Assembly: GCA_903911145.1 (NCBI GenBank) | Contig: CAIWCD010000023.1 | Span: forward strand, 1-64,000 | DNA: 64,000 nt | Source: an uncultured delta proteobacterium | Lineage (GTDB): Bacteria; Myxococcota; Myxococcia; Myxococcales; 40CM-4-68-19 | Direction: 5' to 3' | Translations under genes and position numbers: made by a program | The notes under the pieces: generated by a model | Databases searched by the model: none | The model's input: only the letters and a program-made list of their open reading frames with translations | What the model was told of the DNA's origin: nothing | Part shown: one piece after another, positions 35,607-52,808 of the stretch | How the letters are laid out: each line of letters starts with the position of its first letter | Numbering within the stretch: position 1 is the stretch's first letter

Positions 35607-35758
35607 GTGCTCGGCGCGCGTGGGCCCGCGACAAGACGGCCCAGGCCTTCGCGGTTGTTGACATTCGGCAGATCTGCTCTGGTGCCTTCGTGCCCTCGAG
35701 TGTTGTGCGCATCTTTGCCGCGACCGATTCAATCAACCATCAAACAACAGGTGTGACC

Positions 35759-38700
35759 GTGCTGATTAAACCCCTCCTGCGCGCTGCTTCGCTGGCTGCC
35801 GCGTGCCTTCTTGCCGCATGCAGCCCTGCCTCGAGCAGCGGCAAAGACGGAACCAACGGCGTCAACGGCGTCAATGGCACCAACGGCACCAACGGGACCA
35901 ACGGGACCAACGGCACCAACGGGGCGAGCGGCGCCAACGGGTACAGCACGCTGGAAATCACCACCAGCTTCGCGGCGGGCGATGGCTCTGCGGCTGCCAA
36001 CGCGAGCTGCCCGAACGGTGGCACGCGGGTCCAGACGGGGCTTGATGACGGCGCCAACGGCGGGATTCCGAACAACGGGATCCTCGAGCCCGGAGAAGTC
36101 ACCAGCACCACCTACGTCTGCAACGGCGCTCCCGGTGCGACGGGCGCAACCGGCGCGATTGGGGCGACCGGCGTGTCGGGTATCAACGGAAGCAATGGCA
36201 GCACCGGAGCGACCGGTGCGACTGGCAACAGCGGAACCAACGGCGCCACGACGTTGATTGCGTTCCAGAGCTATGCGGCAGGCAAGGGCACGACCGCGGA
36301 GAACAGCGCCTGCCCCAATGGTGGAGATCGAGTCCAGGCGGGACTCGACAATGGAGCTGGCGGCGGTATCGCCGACGACGGAATTCTTGAGCCTGGCGAA
36401 GTGACCAGCACCAGCTACATCTGCAACGGGGCGACGGGCGCGACGGGATCGACCGGCGCAACTGGTGCCACCGGTGCGACGGGCAGCGGCGCGACTGGCG
36501 CGACAGGCTCGACCGGTTCGACGGGAAGCACGGGTGCAGTTGGCGCGACGGGCTCGACTGGAGCGACTGGCGCGAACGGATATGCCTCTCTCGTCGTGAC
36601 GACAACGTTCGGCGCGGGCCGCGGCACTGACGCGCAGAACGCCAACTGTCCGACCGGCGGCGAGCAGATCAGCTCCGGTCCCGACAACGGCGCCAACGGC
36701 GGCACGGCCAATGACGGCGTCCTCGAGAAGGGCGAGATCACCTCCATCAGCTTCATCTGCAACGGAGCGACGGGAGCCACGGGCGCGACGGGAGCCACGG
36801 GTGCGATCGGGTTCAGCTCGCTGGTTGTGACGACGAGCTTTGGCGCGGGCGCCGGGACGAGCAGTGACAACGCCAGCTGCGTGAACGGTGGACAGCGCAC
36901 GGACACCGGTCTCGACAACGGCGCGGGCGGCGGCACTGCGGGCGATGGAATCCTTCAGGCCGGCGAAATCACCAGCACGAGCTACGCGTGCAACGGCAGT
37001 GGCGGCATGAACATCGGGTCGGTCGCTCCTCCGGGCGGAGCCGATGGCACCTCGACGATTAGAGCAATCGGCGGCGCGAGCAGCGGTGACGACGGCGCCC
37101 AGGGCGGCGTCATTAGTATCCAGATGAACAACGGCAGCGAGGGCGGCCACGTCAAGGTCTTCAAGACCGGCGCGGCCGACGCGAGCTTCAAGTTCCCCGC
37201 CAAGCCGGTCGCGGACCTCGGCGATTACCCGGCCGTCATTGCGATGAATACGACCATCGAGAATTCGAACACCCTCTCCGGCAATGCGCCGATCGGTTCG
37301 CTCTACACCGATGGAAATGGGAATCTGTTTGCGGTTGCCAATGGTGGCCCGATTCAGATTACGGGGCTCTCGATCGCTGCCAACGTGACGCTCTCGCTTC
37401 GTCCGACGGATCCCAATCAGAACGGCACCTCGTTTCTCCGCATCGCTGGCCCCTGCGTGAACTCCGGGACGATTGCGCTCGCGACGTTGAATGGCAATCC
37501 GGTGACCACGCAGCTCAACATCTCCTGTGACTCCTATTCCGGAGATCCCGGCTCGCAGATCACGAACAAGGGCACCAATGGGGATATCAACAATGACGGT
37601 ATGAGCAGCGGTGGGATTACGCTGTACGCATCCTCGATCTGGAACCAAGGAGCGATGCGGGCCAGCGGAGGCAAGGGCGCGAATGGAGGCAATGGCGGCG
37701 ATATCTTTCTCTCCACGAACCAGAAGTCGGTCTGCTGCGCCGGGCCTGGTGGTCAGAACACGGTGTCGACGACCATCTTCAACGCGGGGAGCCTGGTTGC
37801 CGGCGGAGGCTCCGGTCTCAACGGCCAGGGAGGACAGGGCGGAAACGTATCGATTCACGGGATCAGCGACGTCAACAATTCCGGTCTCCTCGATGCGAAC
37901 GGCGGCCTCGGGACGACGACTGGTGGCAGTGCAGGCGCCGTCACTATCTCCGCGGGCGAGGGAGGGAGCGGCTCGCTGCATAACTCAGGACCGCTCTCGG
38001 CATCGGGCGGGAGCGTCTCGTCGAATTGCCACAGCAACTGCAGCGCGGGGTCAGGTGGCGAGATCGGGCTGCTTGCGCAGGGAGGCGCGCTGGTGGGAAG
38101 CGGATCGCTGCTTGCCGCAGGAGGGGCCTCCCCGGTTGGCACGGGTGGCCAGGGTGGCCGCCTGAAGATCGTCAACAGCCTGCTCGGCGACATCGTCATG
38201 TCCGGCAGCATGGACGTCTCTGGCGGGGCCGGCTCGACCGGCTCGTCGGCGGGAGGAATCGATATCTCGGACGACCCGAGCGCCGTGCCGAACGGGCAGG
38301 AGATCATCCTCTACGGATATGCCTCGCTCGACGTGAGCGGTGGGGCCGGAACGGGCTATGGAGGCAATGCTGGAAATCTATGGTTGGCGAATACCTTCTA
38401 TGTGAACCAGAAGCTTTGCAAAGAGTGCTACGCCGGCCCCGGCGGCAGCGTGGTGAACTATGCCGATCTCGCGGCGCGTGGCGGGACCGGAGGACTCACC
38501 GGATCGATGAATGGCGGTCAGGGTGGCAGGATCAATCTCACGACCTCTCCTAAGGCGACGAAGCTGCGCAGCGTGCCCGCGGCGGATGGGAACTCATTCG
38601 AGCGCGTGATCAATGCGGGCGCGATTGATGCGTCGGGCGGAGCATCGGTCAGGGGCGGTGAGGCCGGACAGATCCAGCTCGTCGGTACCAGCGGCGTGGT

Positions 38701-39127
38701 GAACAGCGGGACCTTGTCGGCGCGAGGAGGCGCGGGCAGTGACATCGGTGGCGACGCCTCGGACAACGGGTACATCTGGTTCAGTTCAGCTGGCCCGGTG
38801 AGCAACTCGAATCTCATCGATGTCAGCGGTGGTGCAGGTGTCAACACCGGAGGAGACAGCGGCGGGATCAACCTCATTGGATCGCTCATCAGCGACTCCG
38901 GTGGAATCCTCGCGCAGGGCGGCGCGGCGAGCGACCAGCAGGGCACAGGAGGCCAGGGCGGATCCATCAGACTGCTGAGCACGAATGGGCTGACCTCGAT
39001 CACCGTCGCGCAACCCGCGGGCCTTTCCGTCGCGGGTGGCTACGCCTCGATTGATACGGGCACGCCAGGCGTGGGCGGGCAGCTCTTCATCGACGGCTGG
39101 GATGTGACGACAAGCTGGACGCATTAA
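35759..39127 (+). CDS. Giant collagen-like modular surface lipoprotein
   Basis: This 1122-residue lipoprotein has lipobox LLAAC. A run of GTNG/GANG collagen-type triplets follows, then four copies of a module of about 60 residues with the pattern GGxRxxxGxDNGAxGGxxxxGILExGEVTSTxYxCNG. Each copy has one Cys in xxCPNGG and one in the CNG end. The modules are joined by GATGATG collagen-like triplets of variable length. I believe this module is the one called DUF7151 in myxobacteria. From about residue 420 to the end it is a Gly/Ser/Asn-rich, beta-helix-like region with repeated NSGxLxAxGG units. The start is GTG with an AGGTG site upstream; TTGACA near 35658 may belong to its promoter. A surface adhesin or stalk is likely. 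Confidence 0.85.
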   Translation: MLIKPLLRAASLAAACLLAACSPASSSGKDGTNGVNGVNGTNGTNGTNGTNGTNGASGANGYSTLEITTSFAAGDGSAAANASCPNGGTRVQTGLDDGANGGIPNNGILEPGEVTSTTYVCNGAPGATGATGAIGATGVSGINGSNGSTGATGATGNSGTNGATTLIAFQSYAAGKGTTAENSACPNGGDRVQAGLDNGAGGGIADDGILEPGEVTSTSYICNGATGATGSTGATGATGATGSGATGATGSTGSTGSTGAVGATGSTGATGANGYASLVVTTTFGAGRGTDAQNANCPTGGEQISSGPDNGANGGTANDGVLEKGEITSISFICNGATGATGATGATGAIGFSSLVVTTSFGAGAGTSSDNASCVNGGQRTDTGLDNGAGGGTAGDGILQAGEITSTSYACNGSGGMNIGSVAPPGGADGTSTIRAIGGASSGDDGAQGGVISIQMNNGSEGGHVKVFKTGAADASFKFPAKPVADLGDYPAVIAMNTTIENSNTLSGNAPIGSLYTDGNGNLFAVANGGPIQITGLSIAANVTLSLRPTDPNQNGTSFLRIAGPCVNSGTIALATLNGNPVTTQLNISCDSYSGDPGSQITNKGTNGDINNDGMSSGGITLYASSIWNQGAMRASGGKGANGGNGGDIFLSTNQKSVCCAGPGGQNTVSTTIFNAGSLVAGGGSGLNGQGGQGGNVSIHGISDVNNSGLLDANGGLGTTTGGSAGAVTISAGEGGSGSLHNSGPLSASGGSVSSNCHSNCSAGSGGEIGLLAQGGALVGSGSLLAAGGASPVGTGGQGGRLKIVNSLLGDIVMSGSMDVSGGAGSTGSSAGGIDISDDPSAVPNGQEIILYGYASLDVSGGAGTGYGGNAGNLWLANTFYVNQKLCKECYAGPGGSVVNYADLAARGGTGGLTGSMNGGQGGRINLTTSPKATKLRSVPAADGNSFERVINAGAIDASGGASVRGGEAGQIQLVGTSGVVNSGTLSARGGAGSDIGGDASDNGYIWFSSAGPVSNSNLIDVSGGAGVNTGGDSGGINLIGSLISDSGGILAQGGAASDQQGTGGQGGSIRLLSTNGLTSITVAQPAGLSVAGGYASIDTGTPGVGGQLFIDGWDVTTSWTH

Positions 39128-40186: not shown

Positions 40187-41272
40187 ATGCTCTCCTTGAT
40201 GCTGCTCGTGCCGTCTCTGATTCTGGTTGTGATGATGTGGCTGCCACCGCAGTCCTGGACACTCTGGCTCGCGCGTTTCGTCGCACTCGAGACCAGCCTT
40301 GTGGCGAGTGGACTCGGCCTCGCGGCGCTGCTCTGCGGGCGCGGGCATTTCACAATTCAGGGATTGGCATTCGGAAGTCTGATGGCCGGCCTTGTTCCTC
40401 TCCTGTCTGCGCTTCCGGTCTACGCACGCGAGCGTCAACGGTTCTCGCTGCTCGCTTGGTGCACAGGAGGCGCAACTCCCTCCGTCGCGATCGACCGGGA
40501 CATCGAGCTTGCGCCTGGCCTTCGCGCAGATCTCTACCGCGCACCGGGAAATGGCCCGCACCCGTTTGTCATGGTTGTTCACGGCGGCAGTTGGCGTTCG
40601 GGTGACAAGGGCGTCGCCGATCGGGAGTCGCGCGCATTCGCAGCGGCGGGAACGACAGTCATCGACGTCCAGTATCGACTCGCGCCGCAGCATCCATTTC
40701 CAGCCGCGGTCGAGGACGTTCGGTTGCTCCTTCGTGCGGTGCGCGCGCGCGCCGACTCCCTGCAGATCGATCCCGACCGAGCGGCGCTGTTGGGGCGTTC
40801 AGCCGGTGCGCAGATCGCACTATTGGCCGCGCACAGCGCGGGCGAGGTGGTCGCTGCCCATCCCGACAATATCGTCGTGCGTGCAGTGATCTCTCTCTAC
40901 GGCCCGACCGATCTTGCCTGGTCTCATTCCCATCCCTTTCTTCCTGACGTCGTCGACGGAACAGCCGCGCTCGAGCAGTATCTTGGTGGTTCACCCGAAC
41001 AGAATCCCGATGCATACCGCCGCGCGACGCCGATGACCTGGGCCGCGCATGCGACGGCGGCGACGCTGATTCTCCATGGCACGGCGGAGCGCTGTGTCCG
41101 CGTCGCCAATGCCGAGCGCCTGCGCGACGCGCTCTCCTCCGCGGGCAAGAGCGTCAAGCTCGTGCTGGTCCCCTTCGCTGAGCATGGGTTCGACGTGCGG
41201 CCCGGAGGCATCGGCGCGCAGCTCTCACGCGGCCTGATCCTCGACTTCCTCCGGACGTCGCTTGCGCGCTGA
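40187..41272 (+). CDS. Membrane-anchored alpha/beta-hydrolase (esterase)
   Basis: The 361-residue product has about three N-terminal hydrophobic segments (residues 1-85), then an alpha/beta-hydrolase domain of the hormone-sensitive-lipase/BD-FAE type. It has the oxyanion motif VVHGGSWRSG, nucleophile elbow GRSAGAQ, a catalytic Asp in LILHGTAERCV and His in FAEHGFDV. Carboxylester hydrolysis is likely; the substrate is unknown. It ends 86 bases before the P450-cNMP fusion gene on the same strand and may be the first gene of that cluster. Confidence 0.88.
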   Translation: MLSLMLLVPSLILVVMMWLPPQSWTLWLARFVALETSLVASGLGLAALLCGRGHFTIQGLAFGSLMAGLVPLLSALPVYARERQRFSLLAWCTGGATPSVAIDRDIELAPGLRADLYRAPGNGPHPFVMVVHGGSWRSGDKGVADRESRAFAAAGTTVIDVQYRLAPQHPFPAAVEDVRLLLRAVRARADSLQIDPDRAALLGRSAGAQIALLAAHSAGEVVAAHPDNIVVRAVISLYGPTDLAWSHSHPFLPDVVDGTAALEQYLGGSPEQNPDAYRRATPMTWAAHATAATLILHGTAERCVRVANAERLRDALSSAGKSVKLVLVPFAEHGFDVRPGGIGAQLSRGLILDFLRTSLAR

Positions 41273-41358
41273 GTTGTTCCTGATGATGGCCAGTCCAGAA
41301 TCCTTGTAGTAGGAAATCCGCGCTCGAATATCCGGAAATTCTGACCGCGGAGTTGTTC

Positions 41359-43542
41359 ATGTCGTCGCAGCCTGTCGCGCCCTCGTCGCTCCGTCCCGTT
41401 CCCCGCGTCAAAGGTCGTCGACTGCTCGGCAACCTGCTTGAGTTCTGGCAACGCCCGGTTGGTTTCATGGTCGATGCATTCCAGACCTATGGATCGGTGT
41501 TCCGATTCGATCTTCCCACCAGCCACTCCATTGTCGTCGCGGGCCAGGATGCGCGGGCGTTCCTCCTCGAGCAGGAGCGCAAGAGCGCAGAGACCTCCCG
41601 CTGTCCGATGAGCCGCCTCGGCCTCTTCAAGCCGTTCACCACCGAGGTCGGCCTCGCTGTCTTCGACGCGGAGGGAGAGCAGCACGAGCACCTGCGCGAC
41701 CTGCTCAAACTTCCCTATTCGCGCCAACTCACTGCGCAGTTCGCTCCTGAAATGGAACAGGTGGTGGCCGACGTCGTCTCTGATTGGCCGGCCGGGCAGA
41801 CGGTCGATCTGTTCGCCACCAGTTGCCAGTTGGCACTCCACGCGATGATGTCGGTGGTGACGCCAATCCAGATGCGGGAATACTCAGACGACTTCCACAA
41901 GGCCGGCAACCGCGTGATGTATGCGCAGTTCCGTCTCCTGCCGGAGAGTTCCCTCAAGACTCCGGACTATCTCAAAGCGCGCGGCCGGATGCAGGCGGTC
42001 ATCGACGAAGCTGTCGCAAGGCACGCCGCTGGCGAGTTCAAAGGAGAGTCCCGGGTTCATATGATTGACGCTTGCCTGCAGGCGACCAATCGCAAGGGAG
42101 AAAAGATGAGCAAGGAGGCGGTGCGCGCCACCTGTTTCTATGCGCTCGCCGGGACTGAGATCTACATGGGAAGGTTGATCTGCTTTCTGGTCTACGAGCT
42201 GATCAGGAATCGAAGCTATCTGCAGCGGGTCCTCTCCGAGATCGATTCGACAGAGTCTGAGAAGGATCTCTCCAACGCCTTCCGCCGGATGCCGAATCTG
42301 CGCGCTGCCTATCTGGAAGCATTGCGCTGCTATCCTCTGATTCCTGGTTATTCCTATCTTGCGAACGAAGACCTGGATGTCCTCGGCCATTCAGTACAGA
42401 GCGGGGAACAGGTGGTATTCGCGCCCTACCTCGGACATTACGCGCACGAGCAGTATCCCAATCCAATGGCATTCGATCCGGATCGCCATGCGCTTCCGCG
42501 CAGGGAGTTTGCCCGCTCTGGAATGTTCGTTCCATTCGGGGTTGGACAGCACTCCTGCGCCGCTCCTGGCCTGGTCGAGATGCTGGTGCTCACGTTGACC
42601 ACCGCGCTTCTGCGCCGCACCGATCTGCAACTTGAGCGGCCGACCTATCAGATGAACCTGCGGCTCAATCCGCTGATTACTCCGACGGAACCGCTGCTGG
42701 TGCGCGTGATGGGGTCGCGCACGCCGAAACCGAAGCACGCAGTCGACACACACCTCTCAGAGTCTGCCGATTTTCATCGCGCACATGAGAGCGAAGATTG
42801 GATTGAGACGCTGCCGGCGAAGCAGTCGATCGAAGTCAAGAAAGGGGAGGAGATCATCACGCAGGGGGCGCGTGCTGACGCGTTCTATGTGGTGTTGGAG
42901 GGGACGCTGGCCGTCTGGAAACGAGAGGGCGCTGGAGGCTCTGAGACTCACATAGCGAACAAGGAACCTGGCTCCTGCGTTGGCGAGATCGGCCTGCTCA
43001 AGAATGTCCCGCGCACTGCGAGTGTGCGGGCCGAAACCGAAGCACGCGTGCTTCGATTTGACGAAGCGGAATACAGAAATCTGGTCGGCGAGCACGACCT
43101 GACGTTTGATGACGTGCGCTCGATCTACTATGCGCGCCATATCAAGGCGCTGTTGCATTCCACTCTCCACGGACTCGGCGAAGCGGTGGCGCCGGAGTTG
43201 CTGCAATGGAGAACGCTCGCGGCGGGCGAGTACATGTTCCGGCAGGGTGAGATCTCAGACGCATTCTATATTGTCGTCTCAGGGAGTGCAGAGGTTCTCT
43301 CTGAGACCTCAGATGGTCCGAAGCTTGTGGCCAGACTCGGCCCGGGTTCATTCTTCGGGGAGATGGGCATTCTCAAGTCCCAGCCCCGCGGTGCGTCGGT
43401 GCGTGCAGAGTCGGCGCTCAAGACGCTCCGCATGGAGCGTGCTGCGTTCCTGGCGACCATCAAGGAAGATCCGGCGGCCCTCTCGGATCTGGCACTGATC
43501 ACCTGCCAGCGATTGATCGCGCAAGTCCAGGCGGAGGCATAA
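41359..43542 (+). CDS. Cytochrome P450 fused to two cyclic-nucleotide-binding domains
   Basis: The 727-residue protein has a P450 domain at residues 1-460: I-helix ALAGTEIY (G265, E267), ExxR motif E320-A-L-R323, and heme loop F393-G-V-G-Q-H-S-C400-A-A, which fits the family pattern with His in place of the usual Arg. A linker of about 30 residues leads to two cNMP-binding domains, at about 485-585 and 605-725. Each has the phosphate-binding cassette: VGEIGLLKNVPRTASV (residues 541-556) and FGEMGILKSQPRGASV (666-681), with the Glu and Arg that grip cyclic nucleotide. No reductase domain is fused. The ATG at 41359 has a GGAG site six bases upstream. It is 5 bases from the next P450 gene, so both are surely co-transcribed. 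A cyclic-nucleotide-gated monooxygenase is the plain reading. Confidence 0.9.
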   Translation: MSSQPVAPSSLRPVPRVKGRRLLGNLLEFWQRPVGFMVDAFQTYGSVFRFDLPTSHSIVVAGQDARAFLLEQERKSAETSRCPMSRLGLFKPFTTEVGLAVFDAEGEQHEHLRDLLKLPYSRQLTAQFAPEMEQVVADVVSDWPAGQTVDLFATSCQLALHAMMSVVTPIQMREYSDDFHKAGNRVMYAQFRLLPESSLKTPDYLKARGRMQAVIDEAVARHAAGEFKGESRVHMIDACLQATNRKGEKMSKEAVRATCFYALAGTEIYMGRLICFLVYELIRNRSYLQRVLSEIDSTESEKDLSNAFRRMPNLRAAYLEALRCYPLIPGYSYLANEDLDVLGHSVQSGEQVVFAPYLGHYAHEQYPNPMAFDPDRHALPRREFARSGMFVPFGVGQHSCAAPGLVEMLVLTLTTALLRRTDLQLERPTYQMNLRLNPLITPTEPLLVRVMGSRTPKPKHAVDTHLSESADFHRAHESEDWIETLPAKQSIEVKKGEEIITQGARADAFYVVLEGTLAVWKREGAGGSETHIANKEPGSCVGEIGLLKNVPRTASVRAETEARVLRFDEAEYRNLVGEHDLTFDDVRSIYYARHIKALLHSTLHGLGEAVAPELLQWRTLAAGEYMFRQGEISDAFYIVVSGSAEVLSETSDGPKLVARLGPGSFFGEMGILKSQPRGASVRAESALKTLRMERAAFLATIKEDPAALSDLALITCQRLIAQVQAEA

Positions 43543-43547
43543 AGCCG

Positions 43548-44867
43548 ATGTCCATGACCCAGAAGTTGCTCCTGTCCTCCTATCCGAATCTCAAAGACAT
43601 TCCAGGTCCTGTCCCGAGCTTCCCTCTGGGCAATCTGCGCGATCTGAGCAGCCAGTCGATCTGGAAGGTCTCAGAGGATGTGTCGGCGCGGTATGGTCCT
43701 TACGCGCTGCTCTGGGTCTTGAATCAGCCAGTGGTGTTCGTTCACGATCCGAAAGCGATCGACGAGATCCTGGGTGCAAAATCGGCGGCGTTCTTCAAGG
43801 ATGAGCCGCTCGCGGCGATGCGGCCCGCTCTCCGCACCGACACTGCGTTCACGGCCAATGGACCCGAATGGCAACAGTTGCGGCGCACAAGCTTCCTCTC
43901 TGAGTCGATGATGGGGGAGTGGTTGACGAGCGGGTTTGAGCCGGGTCTGAGATTCCTGCGTGCCCGGATCGCGCGCGATCTTCCCCTGCGCAAGGGAGCG
44001 AATCTGGAGGCCTGGCTCTACCGTCTGGTCTTTGATTTCAACAGCCAGATGTGGCTCGGACGTACGGTCAGTGAGACTGCGTTTGGCGCCTATAACAAGA
44101 TCATGGACGCGATCAATGTTCGCTTGACGACCGCGCTTCCCGTGCTGCCTCCGCGCTTCAATCACTATAAGAACATCTGGTATGGCGCGCTCGAGGAGAT
44201 CGTCGAGCAGGTGCGCCATGAACCAGACGGTCATTCGATGGCGCATCACCTCGCCAGGCACAGTCACTTCACGCTGGCCGATCAGGTCAACCATCTCTCC
44301 AATGCCTTTCCAGGCGGCGTCTGGTCCGTGACTGCTGCGATCGGAGACACGCTTGCGCATCTCTGTGCGCAGCCTCGGTTGCTCGCCGATCTGAAAGCGC
44401 AGTTGGCGACGGCTACCCATTCGTATGAAACGGTGGTTGACCCACTGGAACCCAGCATCCGGGAGACCTTTCGACACTCCGCCCCGGTGCCGACATTCAT
44501 GCGCCGCGTGAAGGAGAATCCCGTTACGGTCGGTCAGGTCACACTCGATGGCGGAGTCCGTGTCATGATCGGTGTCTACCCACTCCATCGCAGCGCTGCG
44601 CACTGGTCTGAGCCTGAGACCTACCGACCGGAACGCTGGACGCGGCAGTTGCTGCAGGAGAATCCCTACGGAAGCGACTATCTGTTTCCGTTCGGCCGCG
44701 GACCGAGAGCCTGCCTCGGCTCGGATGTCGCGCTCTTCCAGATCCGTTCAATTCTCACTGCCCTGCTCGGAGATCCGGCGCGGCGGGTCAGCATCGATCC
44801 GGTGAAGGACTACTCATTCTACTTCGGCTGCCGGATGCCCACGGGCCTGCGCGGTTCGATCGCCTGA
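43548..44867 (+). CDS. Cytochrome P450
   Basis: This 439-residue P450 has the complete heme loop FPFGRGPRAC389LG, ExxR motif E306-T-F-R309, and the PERW motif (YRPERWTRQ). At the I-helix oxygen-activation site the sequence is P255-G-G-V-W-S260. The usual acid-alcohol pair (D/E-T) is therefore replaced by V-W, as in some P450s that do peroxide-driven or non-hydroxylating chemistry. There is no N-terminal membrane anchor. It begins 5 bases after the P450-cNMP fusion gene, with a GGAGG site 10 bases upstream of the ATG. The tyrosine-catabolism genes follow 48 bases later. Substrate unknown. Confidence 0.9.
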   Translation: MSMTQKLLLSSYPNLKDIPGPVPSFPLGNLRDLSSQSIWKVSEDVSARYGPYALLWVLNQPVVFVHDPKAIDEILGAKSAAFFKDEPLAAMRPALRTDTAFTANGPEWQQLRRTSFLSESMMGEWLTSGFEPGLRFLRARIARDLPLRKGANLEAWLYRLVFDFNSQMWLGRTVSETAFGAYNKIMDAINVRLTTALPVLPPRFNHYKNIWYGALEEIVEQVRHEPDGHSMAHHLARHSHFTLADQVNHLSNAFPGGVWSVTAAIGDTLAHLCAQPRLLADLKAQLATATHSYETVVDPLEPSIRETFRHSAPVPTFMRRVKENPVTVGQVTLDGGVRVMIGVYPLHRSAAHWSEPETYRPERWTRQLLQENPYGSDYLFPFGRGPRACLGSDVALFQIRSILTALLGDPARRVSIDPVKDYSFYFGCRMPTGLRGSIA

Positions 44868-44915
44868 CAAACGAGGCTGTTGACACTGCGTCCCGAGTGG
44901 GATTCTTGGGCGCGC

Positions 44916-45893
44916 ATGAAGCTTGCGACTTTCAATGACGGTACGCGCGATGGGCGGCTGTTGCTCGTGCGGCGCGATCTCTCCTCGTGGACCGAGGCCA
45001 GGGATATCGCGCCCACGCTGCAGTCCGCGCTCGACGGCTGGGACACGCTCGGGCCGCAGTTGTTCGCGCGCGCCGCAGAGTTGGAGGCAGGTCGGACCAG
45101 CGCCACGCCCTTCGATGCGCACAGGCTCATGGCGCCGCTGCCTCGCGCATATGAATGGATCGACGGCAGCGCCTATCTCAATCACGTCATTCTCGTGCGA
45201 AAGGCCCGCAAGGCCGAGCCGCCGGCGACGCTGCGCACCGATCCGCTCGTCTATCAAGGCGGCAGCGGACACCTGCTCGGCCCCACGGAGAAGATCTCGC
45301 TGCGGGACGAATCGATGGGCTGCGACTTCGAGAGCGAGGTCGTCGTGGTGCTCGGCGATGTTCCGATGGGCGTGCAGGCCGCTGATGCGAGCCGATATAT
45401 CCGATTGATTGGAATCGCCAACGACGTGAGCTTGCGCAACTTGATTCCAGACGAGCTCGCCAAGGGATTCGGATTCCTCCAGGGAAAGCCGGCGACGGCA
45501 TTCTCGCCGGTATTCGTTACGCCCGATGAATTGGGCGCGCATTGGCAGGACGGCCGCGTGCATCTGCGCTTGCAGAGCACTCTGAATGGCTCGGTCGTCG
45601 GCGATTGCGACGCCGGGCCGGCAATGCATTTCTCGTTCTACGAACTGCTCCAGCACGTGGCGCGCACGCGCCGCCTTACCGCGGGAACCATTCTCGGCAG
45701 CGGCACCGTATCCAATGAAGATCGCGCGCGCGGAATCAGCTGCCTCGCCGAGCGGAGAATGATCGAGACGATTGAAGAGGGCGCACCGCGCACGCCCTTC
45801 ATGAAGTATGGCGACCGGATTGCCATCGAAATGAAGCTGCCCTCTGGCGAGAGTCTTTTCGGTCGAATCGAACAGGAGGTCGCTGCTCCATGA
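44916..45893 (+). CDS. Fumarylacetoacetase-family hydrolase
   Basis: The 325-residue enzyme belongs to the FAH family. In the tyrosine pathway it cleaves fumarylacetoacetate to fumarate and acetoacetate. Family motifs include DFESEVVVVLGD with the metal-binding Glu, RYIRLIGIANDVSLRNL, GFGFLQGKPATAFSPVFV, and TAGTILGSGTVSNEDR. The length fits the short bacterial branch. The start at 44916 begins directly at MKLATF, and the codons before it are not coding. Its stop overlaps the start of the isomerase gene in an ATGA junction, so the last two steps of the pathway are translationally coupled. Confidence 0.92.
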   Translation: MKLATFNDGTRDGRLLLVRRDLSSWTEARDIAPTLQSALDGWDTLGPQLFARAAELEAGRTSATPFDAHRLMAPLPRAYEWIDGSAYLNHVILVRKARKAEPPATLRTDPLVYQGGSGHLLGPTEKISLRDESMGCDFESEVVVVLGDVPMGVQAADASRYIRLIGIANDVSLRNLIPDELAKGFGFLQGKPATAFSPVFVTPDELGAHWQDGRVHLRLQSTLNGSVVGDCDAGPAMHFSFYELLQHVARTRRLTAGTILGSGTVSNEDRARGISCLAERRMIETIEEGAPRTPFMKYGDRIAIEMKLPSGESLFGRIEQEVAAP

Positions 45894-46528
45894 AGCTCTA
45901 TAACTATTGGCGCTCGGGCGCGTCGTGGCGCGTACGCAATGCGCTCGCGCTCAAAGGTCTCTCCTTCGAATATGTCGCGGTCAATCTGCTCAGCGGCGAG
46001 CAGCACGCCACAGCGCACCGCGCGCGAAATCCGGCCGGATATGTCCCGGTATTGGAAATCAGCGAGGAAGGACGTGTCGAGCAGCTGACGCAATCGGTGG
46101 CGATCCTCGAATATCTCGAAGAGATGCATCCTGCGCCGCCTCTGTTGCCTGAGAACCCGGTCGCGCGCGCGAAGGTGCGGGGCCTGGTTGAGTTGATGAA
46201 CTCCGGTATCCAGCCTTTTCATAACCTCTCGACGATCAATTCCGTCAAGGAGCTGGGCGGAGATCCGAAGCTCTGGGCGCAGAAGTATCTGCGCAGTGGC
46301 CTTGCCGCGCTCGAGCAGCTCGCCGGGCCGGTCGCGGGGCAATTTCTCTTTGGCGAATCCCCGACCTTTGCCGACTGCTGCCTGGTGCCGCAGCTCTATG
46401 GCGCGCGTCGATTCGGCGTCGAGGCGCAGGAGTTTCCGCTGCTCGCCCGCATCGAAGCGGCCTGTCTTTCGCGCGAGCCGTTCAAGCGGGCCCACGCCGA
46501 TGCGCAGCCTGACGCGGTCCCCGTTTAA
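45890..46528 (+). CDS. maiA: Maleylacetoacetate isomerase (zeta-class GST)
   Basis: The 212-residue enzyme isomerises maleylacetoacetate to fumarylacetoacetate using glutathione. The N-terminal thioredoxin-fold domain has the zeta-class signature SGASWRVRNAL (active-site Ser/Cys region) and the cis-Pro in GYVPVLEI, then QSVAILEYLEE for the glutathione gamma-Glu. The C-terminal helical domain has PTFADCCLVPQLYGARRF. The start overlaps the FAH stop by four bases. It converts the product of homogentisate dioxygenase, encoded two genes downstream, into the substrate of the preceding gene product. Confidence 0.95.
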   Translation: MKLYNYWRSGASWRVRNALALKGLSFEYVAVNLLSGEQHATAHRARNPAGYVPVLEISEEGRVEQLTQSVAILEYLEEMHPAPPLLPENPVARAKVRGLVELMNSGIQPFHNLSTINSVKELGGDPKLWAQKYLRSGLAALEQLAGPVAGQFLFGESPTFADCCLVPQLYGARRFGVEAQEFPLLARIEAACLSREPFKRAHADAQPDAVPV

Positions 46529-46579
46529 TCATTCTTTAATTTCCTGATTCTATTCGCCCCGAAGCACGGAGAGACGAAC

Positions 46580-47737
46580 ATGGCACGTGAGCCGCTTGGA
46601 ATCATTGGATTGGAACTTGCGCATTGGTATGTGACCGATCTTGAGCGCACGCGCCGCTTCTATACGGAGCTGCTCGATTTCGCTGAGCTCGGCGAATCAG
46701 ACGAGGCGCGCACGGCGTCGGGCAAGCAGAAGTCGCTTCTCTTTCAGGCCGGCGACGTGCGCCTGCTCTGCAGCCAGCCGATCGGTGAGGGCGGCAGGGC
46801 GCACCGCTGGCTCGCAAAGCACCCCGAAGGAGTCGGCACGCTCGTTTTCCAGGTTGCGGACATCGAGCAGACCTGGCGCCTGCTCGAGCAGCGCGGCGGC
46901 ACGATGATCGACGAGATCCAGCGCGACACCGACGCGCGCGGCGGAAAGCTCGCCTGGTTCTCGATTACAACTCCATTCGGCAATACCACCTTCCGATTCG
47001 TCCAGCGGGACGGGTATACGAATCTATTCCCGGGGTTCCGCTATTACGACACGCCGCGGGGCGGGAAGAATCGATTCGGATTCGATAAGGTCGATCACGT
47101 CACCTCGAACTTCCGCACGCTCAAGCCGATGGAGCTGTGGATGAAGGAGGTCATGTCCTTCGAGGAGTTCTGGTCGATCGAATTCCATACCCAGGATGCG
47201 ATTGAACGCGGCAACCAGCACGGCTCTGGACTCAAGAGCATTGTGCTCTGGGACCCGCACAGCGGCGTGAAGTTCGCGAACAACGAGCCAGCGCGGCCGA
47301 ATTTCAAACGTTCCCAGATCAACGTCTTCGTCGAAGATCACCGCGACGCTGGCATCCAGCATCTGGCGCTGACGGTGAAGGATATCGTCGCGTCAGTGCG
47401 CGCGATGAAGGCACAGCCGGGCGTTGATTTCCTCAATACCCCAGGCTCCTATTACGACTATATGCCGGAGCGGTTGGTGAAGTCGGGCGTCGGCCAGATC
47501 GACGAGAAGATCGAGGACCTGCGGCAGCTCGGTATCCTCGTCGATGGGGGCAAGCCGCACAGCTATCTGCTGCAGATCTTCATGAAGGAGGCGGGGCACC
47601 TGCTCAACGATCCGAAGGCCGGTCCGTTCTTCTATGAGATCATCCAGCGCAAGGGCGACCCCGGCTTCGGCGGCGGTAACTTCCGCGCGCTCTTTGAGTC
47701 GATTGAACGGGCGCAGCGCGAGTCGGTCCGCGGGTAA
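46580..47737 (+). CDS. hpd: 4-Hydroxyphenylpyruvate dioxygenase
   Basis: The 385-residue non-heme iron enzyme converts 4-hydroxyphenylpyruvate to homogentisate. It has two VOC-fold halves. The catalytic C-terminal half shows the iron ligands His in FDKVDHVTSNF, His in AGIQHLALTVKDI and Glu in GPFFYEIIQRKGDPGFGGGNF, with the product-side FGGGNF ending typical of the family. Length and motif order match family members. A GGAG site lies eight bases upstream of the ATG. The gene follows the isomerase after 51 bases. Confidence 0.97.
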   Translation: MAREPLGIIGLELAHWYVTDLERTRRFYTELLDFAELGESDEARTASGKQKSLLFQAGDVRLLCSQPIGEGGRAHRWLAKHPEGVGTLVFQVADIEQTWRLLEQRGGTMIDEIQRDTDARGGKLAWFSITTPFGNTTFRFVQRDGYTNLFPGFRYYDTPRGGKNRFGFDKVDHVTSNFRTLKPMELWMKEVMSFEEFWSIEFHTQDAIERGNQHGSGLKSIVLWDPHSGVKFANNEPARPNFKRSQINVFVEDHRDAGIQHLALTVKDIVASVRAMKAQPGVDFLNTPGSYYDYMPERLVKSGVGQIDEKIEDLRQLGILVDGGKPHSYLLQIFMKEAGHLLNDPKAGPFFYEIIQRKGDPGFGGGNFRALFESIERAQRESVRG

Positions 47738-47759
47738 TCAACGCAACCAGGAGGTTCCC

Positions 47760-48920
47760 ATGTTTGAACGTACTGCAGTTGGTTCAATTCCCCGCAAGCA
47801 CCATATCCAGCACCGCGGCGCGGGAGGGAATCTCCTTCACGAGGAGTGCATCACGCAGGATGGATTCGATGGGCCATATACCATCGCCTATCACCTCCGC
47901 GCGCCGCACCTCCAATCGTTGGCACCGGTGGCGGAGCAGTTTCTTGCTCCCGCGGCAACGCCGCCGCAGCCGATGGCCAAACGCCATTACCGTTCACTGC
48001 AGTTGACGCACGCGGGAGGAACGGCGCTCTCGAATCGCACGCCTCTCCTGTTCAACGCCGACGTCACGCTCGGCCTCTGCCGTCCCGATCGCGCGGATAT
48101 CGCCTACTTCAACAACGCTGATGGCGACGAGCTGTTCTACGTGCAGACCGGCGGCGGAATGCTCCGCACCATGTTTGGCGATCTCCGCTTCAATGCCGAG
48201 GATTACGTCTATATCCCGCGCGGGACCGTGCATCGCTTCATCCCGGATGCGAACGCGAAGCAGGAGTGGCTCTGGATGGAGCTGCGCGGCGGGCTGCATA
48301 TCCCGAAGCAGTGGCGCAATCCGGTCGGCCAGTTGCGCATGGACGCGCCGTATAGTCACCGCGATTTCCGCAAGGTCGAGTTCGTCGGTCCGCTCGATGA
48401 AGGGCTGCGCCAGTTGGTAATTAAGCGCGGCGATGCCTTTCACGGCTTCACCTATCCCGATTCACCGCTCGATATCGTCGGCTGGGACGGTTCGGTCTAT
48501 CCCTGGGCCTTCCCCATCCTGAATTTCCAGCCGCGCGTGGGGCTCGTTCATCTCCCGCCGACCTGGCACGGTACGTTCGCCTCACGCGGTTCGCTCGTCT
48601 GCAGCTTCGTACCGCGGCTCACGGACTTCCATCCCGAGGCGATCCCCTGCCCGTATCCGCATAGCAGCGTCGATATGGACGAGTTCATCTTCTATTGCCG
48701 CGGCAACTTCACCTCGCGGCGCGGCGTCGGGCCGGGAAGCATCAGCCATCATCCGGCAGGGATCGCGCACGGGCCCCATCCGGGGGCATATGAGGCAAGT
48801 ATCGGTGCTGCTTCGACGAGCGAGCTGGCGGTGATGCTCGATACGACGCTGCCGCTTATACCAACCGCGGCGGCGCTCTCGGTGGAAGACCCCGATTACC
48901 ACCAGAGCTTTATTCCCTGA
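47760..48920 (+). CDS. hmgA: Homogentisate 1,2-dioxygenase
   Basis: The 386-residue cupin-type iron dioxygenase opens the homogentisate ring to maleylacetoacetate. It carries ADGDELFYVQTGGG, the catalytic-His motif PRGTVHRFIPD, the FVPRLTDFHPEAIP stretch, and HHPAGIAHGPHPGAYEAS with the iron-binding His pair. The start has a perfect AGGAGG site five bases upstream. Length is on the short side of the family (about 390-440). With the three genes before it, it completes the route from 4-hydroxyphenylpyruvate to fumarate and acetoacetate. It ends 12 bases from the convergent xanthine dehydrogenase gene. Confidence 0.96.
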   Translation: MFERTAVGSIPRKHHIQHRGAGGNLLHEECITQDGFDGPYTIAYHLRAPHLQSLAPVAEQFLAPAATPPQPMAKRHYRSLQLTHAGGTALSNRTPLLFNADVTLGLCRPDRADIAYFNNADGDELFYVQTGGGMLRTMFGDLRFNAEDYVYIPRGTVHRFIPDANAKQEWLWMELRGGLHIPKQWRNPVGQLRMDAPYSHRDFRKVEFVGPLDEGLRQLVIKRGDAFHGFTYPDSPLDIVGWDGSVYPWAFPILNFQPRVGLVHLPPTWHGTFASRGSLVCSFVPRLTDFHPEAIPCPYPHSSVDMDEFIFYCRGNFTSRRGVGPGSISHHPAGIAHGPHPGAYEASIGAASTSELAVMLDTTLPLIPTAAALSVEDPDYHQSFIP

Positions 48921-48932
48921 TCGGTTCGCCTG

Positions 48933-51900
48933 CTAACTGCGCAGGCGCGCACGCACGGCGTGGAAGATCGCCTCGTGCGTTGCCGGCGAGGGCAGGGGGA
49001 TATCTCCGCCGGGATTTCCAAACGCCGCGATTGCATCGCGAATCGCCTCGCGCGCTGATATCGCGAGCATCAACGGCGGCTCTCCAACCGCTTTGCTGCC
49101 GTGCACGACATTCGCCTGCGTCGCGCGCGTGAGCAGCTTGACGCGCATTTCGTACGGCGCGTCTCCAATCGTCGGGATCTGATAGGTGCTCGCCGAGTGG
49201 GTCAGGAGCTTTCCCTCGGGCGTCCATTTCAGCTCCTCGCTCGTCAGCCAGCCAACGCCCTGCACGAACGCGCCCTCGACCTGCCCGCGATCGATGCGCG
49301 GATTCAGTGAGTCGCCAACGTCCTGCAGAATATCAACGCGGCGCAGGCGCTTCATTCCCGTCAATCCGTCGATCTCGACCTCGCTGACCGCGGCGCCATA
49401 GGAGAAGTAATGAAAGGGTCGGCCTGTTCCTGTCGCCTTGTCATAGGCGAGGTCCGGCGTTCGATAGTATCCCGTGCTCGATAAGCTGATTTGACCGAAA
49501 TAGGCCCGCTCCGCGAGTTGGTTGAACGCAAGCTTCGTCGCGGGCGACTGCTGCGACCAGAAGAGACCGTCCTCGAGTGCAATCGACTCGGGCGCGACGG
49601 GCCGCGAGAGCGTCTCGCTGAGCATCCGCGCTGCCACTGGGCGTAGACGCTCACGCAGCGTGGCGCAGGCCGCCTGCACTGCAGCGCCGTTCAGGTCAGC
49701 GCCGCTTGAGGCGGCCGTTGCCGACGTATTCGGAACTTTATCGGTCTGCGTCTTCATCGCCCGCACGTGCTCGGTGCGCACGCCGAGTTCGCGCGAGACC
49801 ACACCGACCACCTTGCTATGCAGTCCTTGCCCCATCTCCGTGCCGCCGTGGTTCACCTGCACCGTTCCATCGCGATAGATGAGAACGAGCGCACCGGCCT
49901 GGTTGAGGAACGACGCAGTGAACGAGATGCCGAATTTCAATGGCGTGATCGCAATCCCGCGCTTGCACCATTCATTCGACCGATTAAACGCTGCGATCTC
50001 CGCGCGGCGCGATTTCAATTCCGCGCTCTCGACCAACTCGCTCCAGATCCGCTCAATGCGGTTGTCGTCAAGATGCTGCCCGTAATGCGTCGTGTTCGTC
50101 TCGGGCCGCGCTGCGCGATAGAGATTCCGCTCGCGGACTACCTCGGGCGCAAGCGAGAGCGCGCGGGCGACGCGGTCGAGGATCTCCTCGATGACCACCA
50201 TCCCCTGCGGTCCTCCGAATCCACGAAAGGCGGTATGTGAGACCACATTGGTATTGCAGACCCGCCCTTCGAAACGCAGCGCGGGCAGGTGATAGGAATT
50301 ATCGAGATGAAAGAGTGCGCGATCGAGGATTGATTCCGAGAGATCGAGCGCATATCCGCCGTCGGAGAAGAGCGCGACCTTCACTCCCTGGATCGCGCCC
50401 GCGTCGTCGAAACCGACCTCATATCTGGCATAGAACGGGTGGCGCTTTCCCGTCGTCACCATATCGATATCGCGATCGAGCTGGATGCGCGCGGGCTTTC
50501 CGGTGCGCATGGCGGCGAGCGCGCAGAGTGCGGCAAAAGCGTTCCCCTGCGTCTCCTTGCCTCCGAATCCACCGCCCATTCGCGGCGACTGCACCACGAC
50601 CTTGTTGCTCGGCAGATGCAGCACGTGCGAGACGACCGCCTGGATCTCCGACGGGTGCTGTGTCGAGGAGACGACGAAGACATCTCCATCATCGCCGCGC
50701 TCGGCCCAGGCCGATTGGCTCTCGAGATAGAAATGCTCCTGGCCGCCAATATTGAGCTCGCCCGCGACGCGATGCGGACTGCCTCGCAGCGCGCTCTCGA
50801 CGTCGCCGCGCTGGATCACGTGGGGATTGGTATGGAAGCGATTGGCCGCGATGGCAGCGGATATGCCGATGATCGCGGGCTTCGGCGCATATTCGACGAC
50901 GATCGTCGCTGCGGCCGCGCGCGCCTGCGCAAGCGTCTGTGCGACCACCATTGCAACCATCTGTCCGACGAAGAGAACCTCGTGGGCAGCCAGCAGCGGC
51001 TCGTCTTTTCGAATCGCGCCGATCTCGTTCTCGCCGGGGATCTCTGCGGCCGTAATGATATCGACAACGCCCGGCATTGCCCGTGCGGCCGACGTATCGA
51101 GCTTTGTAATGGCGGCGTGTGCGTGCGGCGAGAGCAGTGGCCAGAGTTCGAGCATTCCGCCGCGTTGGCTCGCCTGATCGTCGACGTAGAGCGCGCTGCC
51201 GGTCACGTGTCCCCAGGCGCTGTCGTGCCGCATCGCGCGTGAGGGCTCGTTGTCGACGAGCTGCTCCACGTGCGGAAGAAAGTCGAGCGCACCGTCCTGC
51301 GGCGGGCTTTCGAGACCGAGGAGATACTTGCGCAGCAGAGAGGAGACGAGCGCGCGACGCACTTCGGCGCTTCCGCGGACGTCGCTGATGGGGTTGAACT
51401 CGCGTGCGATCGAGGACTCGGCGAGCGCGACCGTCTCTTCGTCGAGCAAGCGACCGACGAGGAGCGCCTCGGTGTTCTTCGCGCGAATTGGCGTTGCCGC
51501 GACACCGCCGAATCCGAGACGCGCATGGCGCACGCGATTGTCCGGATCGAGCTCGAGCAGCATTCCCGCTGCGACGATGGAGATATCGAGTTCGCGCCGC
51601 TTGCTCACCTTGAAACTCGTCGCGCGCACCAACCCGTCGGTCGGCAGCGAGAGCGGAACGTGTATGGCCGTGACGATCTCGTCCGCGCCCAGCAAGGTCT
51701 TGCGATATCCGACGAAGAACTCCGCAAGTGGAACGCGTCGCTCTCCGCGCACGGAGCGCAGCGCGAGCGACGCATCGAGCGAGAGAAGGACCGGCGCGAG
51801 ATCGCCGATTGGAGATGCCGTGACGAGGTTGCCGGAGACGGTGGCGCGGTTGCGGATCGCGCGCGCGGCGAAGACCTTGAGCATCTTGCGCAGGCCGTGC

Positions 51901-52808
51901 AGGCGGTCAGCGCGTGGATCCCCGGCCGGCTGCGCGATCGTCTCTTCGAGCTGTGTGAGCGTCGCAGCGCCGCCGATGATCAGCTCGTCCGCGCTGCGCG
52001 TGATCCGGCGCAATTCGGGAACGCCTTCGGTCGAGATCAGCCGCGGGAGCGCACGCAGCTTCTTGTTGCGCTCGACGCCCAGCTCGGTCGCGCCAGCGAT
52101 GAGCAGTGCCGTCGGATCTGCCGCACGCAGTTCACAGAGCTCGGTGAGCGTCGTCGGTCGTTGAAATCGATCTCCGTGTGCCGAGATATCGACCGGGGCG
52201 AGCTGCGTGCGCGCATCCGCGCCGAGCGGCACCAGGAGCGGATCTCCGGCGACGCCACCGTGGTCGTGGACCTCGCGCGCCTGCAGCATCGCGTCGCGGA
52301 TCGGTCGATAACCAGTGCAGCGGCAGAGGTTCCCCGCGAGCTGATCGGCAAGCTCGACGCGGCGATTGGCGCACGCGGCCGGTGAACTTCCCCGATCAAT
52401 ATCGGCGCGGTAATAGCCTTCGACCATCGACGCGACGAATCCGGGAGTGCAGAAACCGCACTGCGAGCCGCACTGTTCGACCATCGCTGATTGCACAGGG
52501 TGCGGATGCTCGCGCGAGCCGACGCCCTCGACGGTTACCAATTCGCGCCCGGCGATCGCGCCGAGAAACGTGATGCACGAATTGACTGCGCGATAGGTCG
52601 GTCGATCCTGCGCGTCGGTGTCGACGAGCAGCACGGTGCAGGCGCCGCAATCTCCCTCAGCGCAGCCCTCCTTGCTGCCGGTCAGTCCGCTGGAGCGGAG
52701 ATATTCGAGAAGCGTCGTCGTCGGCGAGGCGTCGCGCACCTCGCGGGTGGCGCCGTTGAGCGTGAACGTGATCGACGAGAGGGTCTGGGTCGGCGTGCCG
52801 TTGCGCAT
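48933..52808 (-). CDS. Single-chain xanthine dehydrogenase
   Basis: This 1291-residue molybdo-flavoenzyme oxidises hypoxanthine and xanthine to urate. All parts are in one chain. The [2Fe-2S] cluster I ligands are C49, C54, C57 and C78. Cluster II uses CGFC (C117, C120) and CRC (C162, C164). The FAD domain at about 210-500 has LLIAGATELGVERN and the TVSGNLVTASPIGDL stretch. The Moco domain fills about 530-1290, with GGGFGGKETQ, FRGFGGPQ and the catalytic-Glu motif KAVGEPPL near residue 1240. Most bacteria split this into XdhA and XdhB; one chain is the eukaryotic layout. The start at 52808 is an ATG. The neighbouring tyrosine catabolism genes converge on it. Confidence 0.93.
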   Translation of the reverse strand: MRNGTPTQTLSSITFTLNGATREVRDASPTTTLLEYLRSSGLTGSKEGCAEGDCGACTVLLVDTDAQDRPTYRAVNSCITFLGAIAGRELVTVEGVGSREHPHPVQSAMVEQCGSQCGFCTPGFVASMVEGYYRADIDRGSSPAACANRRVELADQLAGNLCRCTGYRPIRDAMLQAREVHDHGGVAGDPLLVPLGADARTQLAPVDISAHGDRFQRPTTLTELCELRAADPTALLIAGATELGVERNKKLRALPRLISTEGVPELRRITRSADELIIGGAATLTQLEETIAQPAGDPRADRLHGLRKMLKVFAARAIRNRATVSGNLVTASPIGDLAPVLLSLDASLALRSVRGERRVPLAEFFVGYRKTLLGADEIVTAIHVPLSLPTDGLVRATSFKVSKRRELDISIVAAGMLLELDPDNRVRHARLGFGGVAATPIRAKNTEALLVGRLLDEETVALAESSIAREFNPISDVRGSAEVRRALVSSLLRKYLLGLESPPQDGALDFLPHVEQLVDNEPSRAMRHDSAWGHVTGSALYVDDQASQRGGMLELWPLLSPHAHAAITKLDTSAARAMPGVVDIITAAEIPGENEIGAIRKDEPLLAAHEVLFVGQMVAMVVAQTLAQARAAAATIVVEYAPKPAIIGISAAIAANRFHTNPHVIQRGDVESALRGSPHRVAGELNIGGQEHFYLESQSAWAERGDDGDVFVVSSTQHPSEIQAVVSHVLHLPSNKVVVQSPRMGGGFGGKETQGNAFAALCALAAMRTGKPARIQLDRDIDMVTTGKRHPFYARYEVGFDDAGAIQGVKVALFSDGGYALDLSESILDRALFHLDNSYHLPALRFEGRVCNTNVVSHTAFRGFGGPQGMVVIEEILDRVARALSLAPEVVRERNLYRAARPETNTTHYGQHLDDNRIERIWSELVESAELKSRRAEIAAFNRSNEWCKRGIAITPLKFGISFTASFLNQAGALVLIYRDGTVQVNHGGTEMGQGLHSKVVGVVSRELGVRTEHVRAMKTQTDKVPNTSATAASSGADLNGAAVQAACATLRERLRPVAARMLSETLSRPVAPESIALEDGLFWSQQSPATKLAFNQLAERAYFGQISLSSTGYYRTPDLAYDKATGTGRPFHYFSYGAAVSEVEIDGLTGMKRLRRVDILQDVGDSLNPRIDRGQVEGAFVQGVGWLTSEELKWTPEGKLLTHSASTYQIPTIGDAPYEMRVKLLTRATQANVVHGSKAVGEPPLMLAISAREAIRDAIAAFGNPGGDIPLPSPATHEAIFHAVRARLRS

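Follow-up and report, generated by a model that had tools for sequence, protein, structure and literature searches.

Cytochrome P450 enzymes are usually controlled through their transcription, their substrate or their redox partner. P450s of the CYP74 clan (allene oxide synthase, hydroperoxide lyase) and the fungal DOX-CYP proteins work downstream of a lipoxygenase or dioxygenase and do so without normal O2 activation. The animal enzymes thromboxane synthase (CYP5A1) and prostacyclin synthase (CYP8A1) isomerise a peroxide without a reductase and have been termed self-sufficient; the I-helix of the former reads IAGYEI(345)ITNT, Ile345 standing at the place of Asn287 in prostacyclin synthase (Oliw, PMC13049297). 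Tandem cyclic-nucleotide-binding (CNB) domains are found in the RI regulatory subunit of protein kinase A (PKA). CNB domains are also joined to an enzyme in one chain in the cAMP-regulated mycobacterial Pat acetyltransferase, and they occur in the shells of Family 2B encapsulins.

The window, by which we mean the whole stretch of 64,000 nucleotides analysed here, encodes a P450 followed by two CNB domains in a single chain (Table 1). The first-pass annotation had described this arrangement, and the uninterrupted 727-aa frame, the Pfam matches and the recurrence in relatives all bear it out; the residues that it had named, E320xxR323, Cys400 and the phosphate-binding cassettes VGEIGLLKNVPRTASV (E543, R552) and FGEMGILKSQPRGASV (E668, R677), are exact. 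The P450 domain matches the Pfam p450 model at 8e-34 (117.6 bits against a cutoff of 22.8), and the two cNMP_binding stretches match at 2.3e-42 (143.3 bits against 27.5). A GGAG lies about 7 nt 5' of the ATG at 41359, and the TTG at 41353 is a less likely start. AlphaFold2 predicts a P450 fold and two CNB beta-rolls with a mean pLDDT of 84 and a pTM of 0.74, from an input alignment built only from the loci collected in this analysis and in which the tails of non-fused P450s were wrongly aligned onto CNB2. The P450 part has the fold, the Cys heme loop, the ExxR motif and the second Arg of the superfamily, and each CNB domain combines a beta-roll with a Gly-Glu...Arg cassette.

Table 1. Features of the P450-CNB-CNB fusion gene and of the adjoining P450 gene in the window.
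Feature	Position	Strand	Evidence
P450-CNB-CNB fusion gene, 727 aa	41359..43542	+	Open frame; Pfam PF00067 and 2x PF00027; AF2 model pLDDT 84
P450 domain, aa 21-445	41419..42693	+	Pfam 8e-34; Foldseek best 6mcw, Methylococcus CYP51, 1.1e-19
I-helix, aa 264-272 (AGTEIYMGR), without the acid-alcohol Thr	42148..42174	+	Alignment of 31 P450s
ExxR (EALR), aa 320-323	42316..42327	+	Alignment
Heme loop VPFGVGQHSCAAPG, Cys400, CxA in place of CxG	42529..42570	+	Alignment
P450-CNB1 linker, aa 456-485, low confidence, probably disordered	42724..42813	+	pLDDT <50 at 460-484
CNB domain 1, about aa 494-578	42838..43092	+	Pfam; PDB PKA-R alignment from 491-494; AF2 beta-roll
Phosphate-binding cassette 1, VGEIGLLKNVPRTASVRA, E543 and R552	42979..43032	+	Sequence
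CNB domain 2, aa 618-703	43210..43467	+	Pfam
Phosphate-binding cassette 2, FGEMGILKSQPRGASVRA, E668 and R677	43354..43407	+	Sequence
Partner P450 (P450_2), 439 aa, 5 bp past the fusion	43548..44867	+	Pfam 5e-38

The likeness to the PKA regulatory tandem that had been proposed for this protein is supported by searches of the PDB, in which aa 491-698 align to type I regulatory subunits over the whole length of the tandem at about 1e-21, with equal cassette residues. Unlike the PKA subunit, however, the fusion carries a P450 at its N-terminus and has neither a dimerisation/docking domain nor an inhibitor (pseudosubstrate) sequence there. The CNB part also matches NF058543, as in Pat, but the enzyme joined to the CNB domains is a P450 in the window. 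A weak match to the CNB module of Family 2B encapsulins (NF041163, 2.8e-12) is far below the cutoff, and the fusion has no capsid domain, its CNB domains being attached directly to the P450. The nearest solved relative of the P450 domain in both sequence and fold is the Methylococcus capsulatus CYP51-ferredoxin protein (6mcw), likewise a bacterial C-terminal P450 fusion, although the identity is about 22% and a ferredoxin is attached rather than CNB domains.

A search for such fusions and their neighbours yielded comparable P450-CNB chains at eight further loci in myxobacteria, nine with the window, from two phylum-level groups; these counts are lower bounds, few candidates having been scored per genome. 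Within the window's own family (12 genomes) the fusion is absent outside the window genome. The 195 genomes of its phylum-level group hold one further fusion, that of G025, which belongs to another family, is 733 aa long and is 29% identical over the whole length, and a non-fused P450 (G153) that is 42% identical to the window P450 by BLAST. A scan of genome contigs gave L009 (Myxococcales MAG nzgw256), whose contig starts within the fusion, so that all that can be seen is CNB2 and the last part of CNB1, 67% identical to the window's. A search of 379 genomes in the phylum of this MAG, together with reading of the loci, added G561, G263, G287, G308, G564 and G550. Two CNB domains are present in the fusions of G025 (L012), G263 (L127), G287 (L129), G308 (L130), G564 (L138) and G550 (L139). 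In G561, a P450 49% identical to the window's is followed by a single CNB domain without the cassette Arg; this orthologue (L126:9467-11230, + strand) has lost CNB2 along with the Arg of CNB1, and what is left of its CNB part seems to be in decay or to have taken on another use. Neither G153 nor G295, both members of the window's P450 clade, has a CNB domain. A plasmid search returned only weak matches to non-fused P450s, and a scan of viral contigs gave no match. Because independent genomes carry the same joint and the same domain order, an assembly or frame artefact, a chimera and a chance joint are ruled out, and a split into two separate genes was not seen in any relative. The earlier statement that no P450 of this kind had been described agrees with the open-access literature searched, in which no P450-CNB fusion was found, although this does not prove its absence elsewhere. 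The fusion may thus be a so far unreported second-messenger-controlled P450.

In an alignment of 31 P450s, the window clade consists of the window, G561, G153 and G025 together with a branch formed by G287, G308, G564, G550 and G295, and its support in the tree is 97/92. The O2-activation motif AGx(D/E)T of the I-helix is replaced by (G/N)xx(I/V/F)YxxR in this clade. Every clade member for which the I-helix could be read, nine in all, lacks the Thr and has a CxA heme loop, whereas AGx(D/E)(T/S) is kept in 21 of 21 outgroup P450s. Because the Thr is replaced throughout the clade (by Ile, Val or Phe, with Ile the window's residue) and kept throughout the outgroup, ordinary O2 activation by window-type P450s appears doubtful, and the word oxygenase in the first-pass annotation probably does not stand as written. 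The genomic context of the relatives, which points to lipoxygenase/hydroperoxide chemistry, also speaks against it.

With AGTEIY in its I-helix, the window P450 lacks the acid-alcohol pair of a conventional monooxygenase. It has instead the pattern of self-sufficient P450s, which have no acid-alcohol Thr and present a nonpolar residue or Asn toward the heme: Ile268 is at the Thr position by alignment, and the window I-helix LAGTEIYMG places an Ile at the position corresponding to thromboxane synthase Ile345. The resemblance to CYP5A1 and CYP8A1 lies in the P450 fold and in the replaced Thr (AGYEI-I against AGTEI-Y in the window), but those are animal enzymes of distant sequence without CNB domains. 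P450eryF is a monooxygenase even though it has no I-helix Thr, so loss of this residue is by itself no proof of redox independence. The fusion of G263, which is independent of the window clade, retains AGMDT in its I-helix, and hence a CNB fusion does not need the loss of O2 activation. The clade's second branch has an Asn (KNMG) that recalls prostacyclin synthase, but this likeness was set aside, since the Asn aligns at the Gly and not at the Thr position. A CYP51 or sterol function was rejected as well: CYP51 is simply the nearest solved structure and retains the Thr of the I-helix, which the window P450 lacks. Membership in CYP74 was rejected because the heme loop is of ordinary length and PDB profile searches lend no support, CYP74 not being among the best 60 PDB matches listed for either P450 of the window pair.

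P450_2, the second member of this pair, was absent from the earlier annotation. Its I-helix, SNAFPGGVWSVT, is also without the acid-alcohol pair (AFPGGVWSVT; VYPGGVFSMT in the G561 counterpart). The pair is conserved in three genomes, namely the window, L009 and G561 (L126): the second P450 is 52.5% identical to the window P450_2 in L009 and 43% in G561, and the intergenic gaps are 3 and 9 bp, respectively. No P450_2 lies near the other fusions. The fusion and P450_2 are probably co-transcribed. Close behind them, on the + strand (44880-48920), are genes for an FAA hydrolase, a maleylacetoacetate isomerase, an HPPD-like protein and a very divergent HgmA-like protein (45.7 bits against a cutoff of 510). 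A part of the pair in this tyrosine/homogentisate pathway (FAAH/MaiA/HPPD/HGO) was rejected; because homogentisate-pathway genes are absent at the L009 and G561 loci, the unit is taken to be the two P450s. An alpha/beta hydrolase gene (BD-FAE/lipase-like; 40187-41272) ends 86 bp upstream of the fusion on the same strand, and its product could be a source of free fatty acids. No redox-partner gene was found among the scanned neighbours of the fusion.

Of the 49 P450_2 homologues from a phylum search, 46, spread over 45 myxobacterial genomes, have a lipoxygenase gene no more than 300 bp away, and two more have one at about 5 kb. P450_2 and the lipoxygenase-adjacent P450s form one clade (support 100/100). 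The arrangement of a lipoxygenase gene and an adjacent P450 without the I-helix acid-alcohol pair is itself conserved in 45 myxobacterial genomes (loci L016-L045 and L078-L091), and the opposite strand often carries, at a distance of about 2 kb, another gene with weak similarity to lipoxygenases. The G025 fusion is preceded, on its own strand, by a 471-aa lipoxygenase-like protein with HxxxxH and HxxxH motifs, which matches PF00305 at E 3e-5 (23.1 bits, just under the cutoff of 23.6) and a 12S-lipoxygenase in the PDB at 2.4e-8. This protein (L012:14430-15845, - strand) ends in SVSI-QF, two residues past the usual C-terminal iron-ligand Ile. PF00305 had no match in the window genome, nor in the incomplete MAG of L009, though both carry the P450 pair; control genomes in that search were also without a match, and the same model matched 56 genomes in another search. 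Nor was there a lipoxygenase match in the DNA read around the fusions of G263, G287, G308, G564 and G550 or around the G561 pair. Lipoxygenases of Myxococcus xanthus yield hepoxilin-type products (PMC5760719), and no paper on P450 genes beside such myxobacterial lipoxygenases was found in the literature searched. The window clade hints at a bacterial set of peroxide-rearranging P450s connected with myxobacterial lipoxygenases. The analogy with CYP74 and DOX-CYP extends to the Gly-Gly I-helix of P450_2 and to the lipoxygenases next to its relatives, but the fusion has neither the enlarged heme loop of CYP74 nor a fused dioxygenase and carries the CNB tandem instead.

Both CNB domains of the window, G025, G263, G308, G564 and G550 retain the Glu and Arg of the cassette, as does CNB2 of L009. 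CNB1 of G287 has lost the Glu and is degenerate; in G561, CNB1 is damaged and CNB2 is missing. The conservation of both cassettes in fusions that have diverged so far suggests selection for nucleotide binding. Since G153 and G295 have no CNB domain and G561 has one degenerate CNB domain, the chemistry cannot depend on nucleotide control. In the window, the cassette Arg is followed by Thr in CNB1 and by Gly in CNB2, and in PKG a Thr at this place favours cGMP. Five class III cyclases are encoded in the window genome, and the adenine-type Lys is present in two.

We favour, with a probability of about 0.4, a reading in which the fusion is a cyclic-nucleotide-regulated, redox-partner-independent P450 that processes hydroperoxides in the manner of oxylipin enzymes. 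The substrate, a peroxide (hydroperoxide or endoperoxide) that is probably derived from a fatty acid, would bring its own O-O bond, which the P450 domain would break and rearrange without electrons from a reductase, like thromboxane synthase and the CYP74 enzymes. P450_2, likewise without the O2-activation residues, would act alongside it. Once the CNB tandem has bound cAMP (or cGMP), the CNB module would take up another position against the P450, whose activity would rise or fall as a result. If so, a receptor for cyclic nucleotides built into a P450 would add a new principle to the control of these enzymes and would offer engineering a ready-made switch. The most far-reaching version would be an oxylipin synthase that rearranges lipid hydroperoxides independently of a redox partner and is switched directly by cAMP or cGMP at its CNB domains. 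This is a tentative proposal whose chances we put on the low side; it would mean that bacteria control how much oxylipin they make at the level of the enzyme itself.

A conventional monooxygenase under cyclic-nucleotide control, close to what the first-pass annotation proposed, is rather unlikely. In such an enzyme the substrate would help to deliver protons in the absence of the Thr, and ferredoxin and reductase would be separate proteins. The heme Cys, the ExxR motif and the PERF-like Arg are intact in the alignment, the nearest solved relatives are CYP51 monooxygenases, and the G263 fusion with its AGMDT would fit such an enzyme. However, the clade-wide loss of a Thr that all 21 outgroup relatives keep, the scanned neighbourhood without a redox-partner gene and the lipoxygenase context of the relatives argue against it. 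Improbable, to our judgement, is a heme or lipid sensor or scaffold that has lost turnover, the P450 serving as a ligand-binding regulatory subunit for P450_2 and the CNB domains integrating the nucleotide signal. Such a role would suit the non-canonical I-helix, the CxA heme loop and the pairing with P450_2 in three genomes, and it has a parallel in the P450-derived activator proteins of glycosyltransferases, with a weak TIGR04515 match here; but the residues for heme ligation and for the fold are all kept, and P450_2 is not near the other fusions.

The P450 might also process peroxides ungated, with CNB domains that merely localise or oligomerise the protein or bind another ligand. The absence or degeneration of CNB domains in G153, G295 and G561 and the degenerate CNB1 of G287 are in line with this, but we consider it unlikely in view of the conservation of both cassettes in the window and in the fusions of G025, G263, G308, G564 and G550.

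Two further genes of the window were noted. On the - strand, 48933-52808 encodes XdhA and XdhB (the small and molybdopterin subunits of xanthine dehydrogenase) fused into one protein of 1291 aa, as in eukaryotic XDH. On the + strand, 35690-39127 encodes a 1145-aa protein with long collagen-like repeats (NGTNGTN/GATGATG) and a lipoprotein-type signal.
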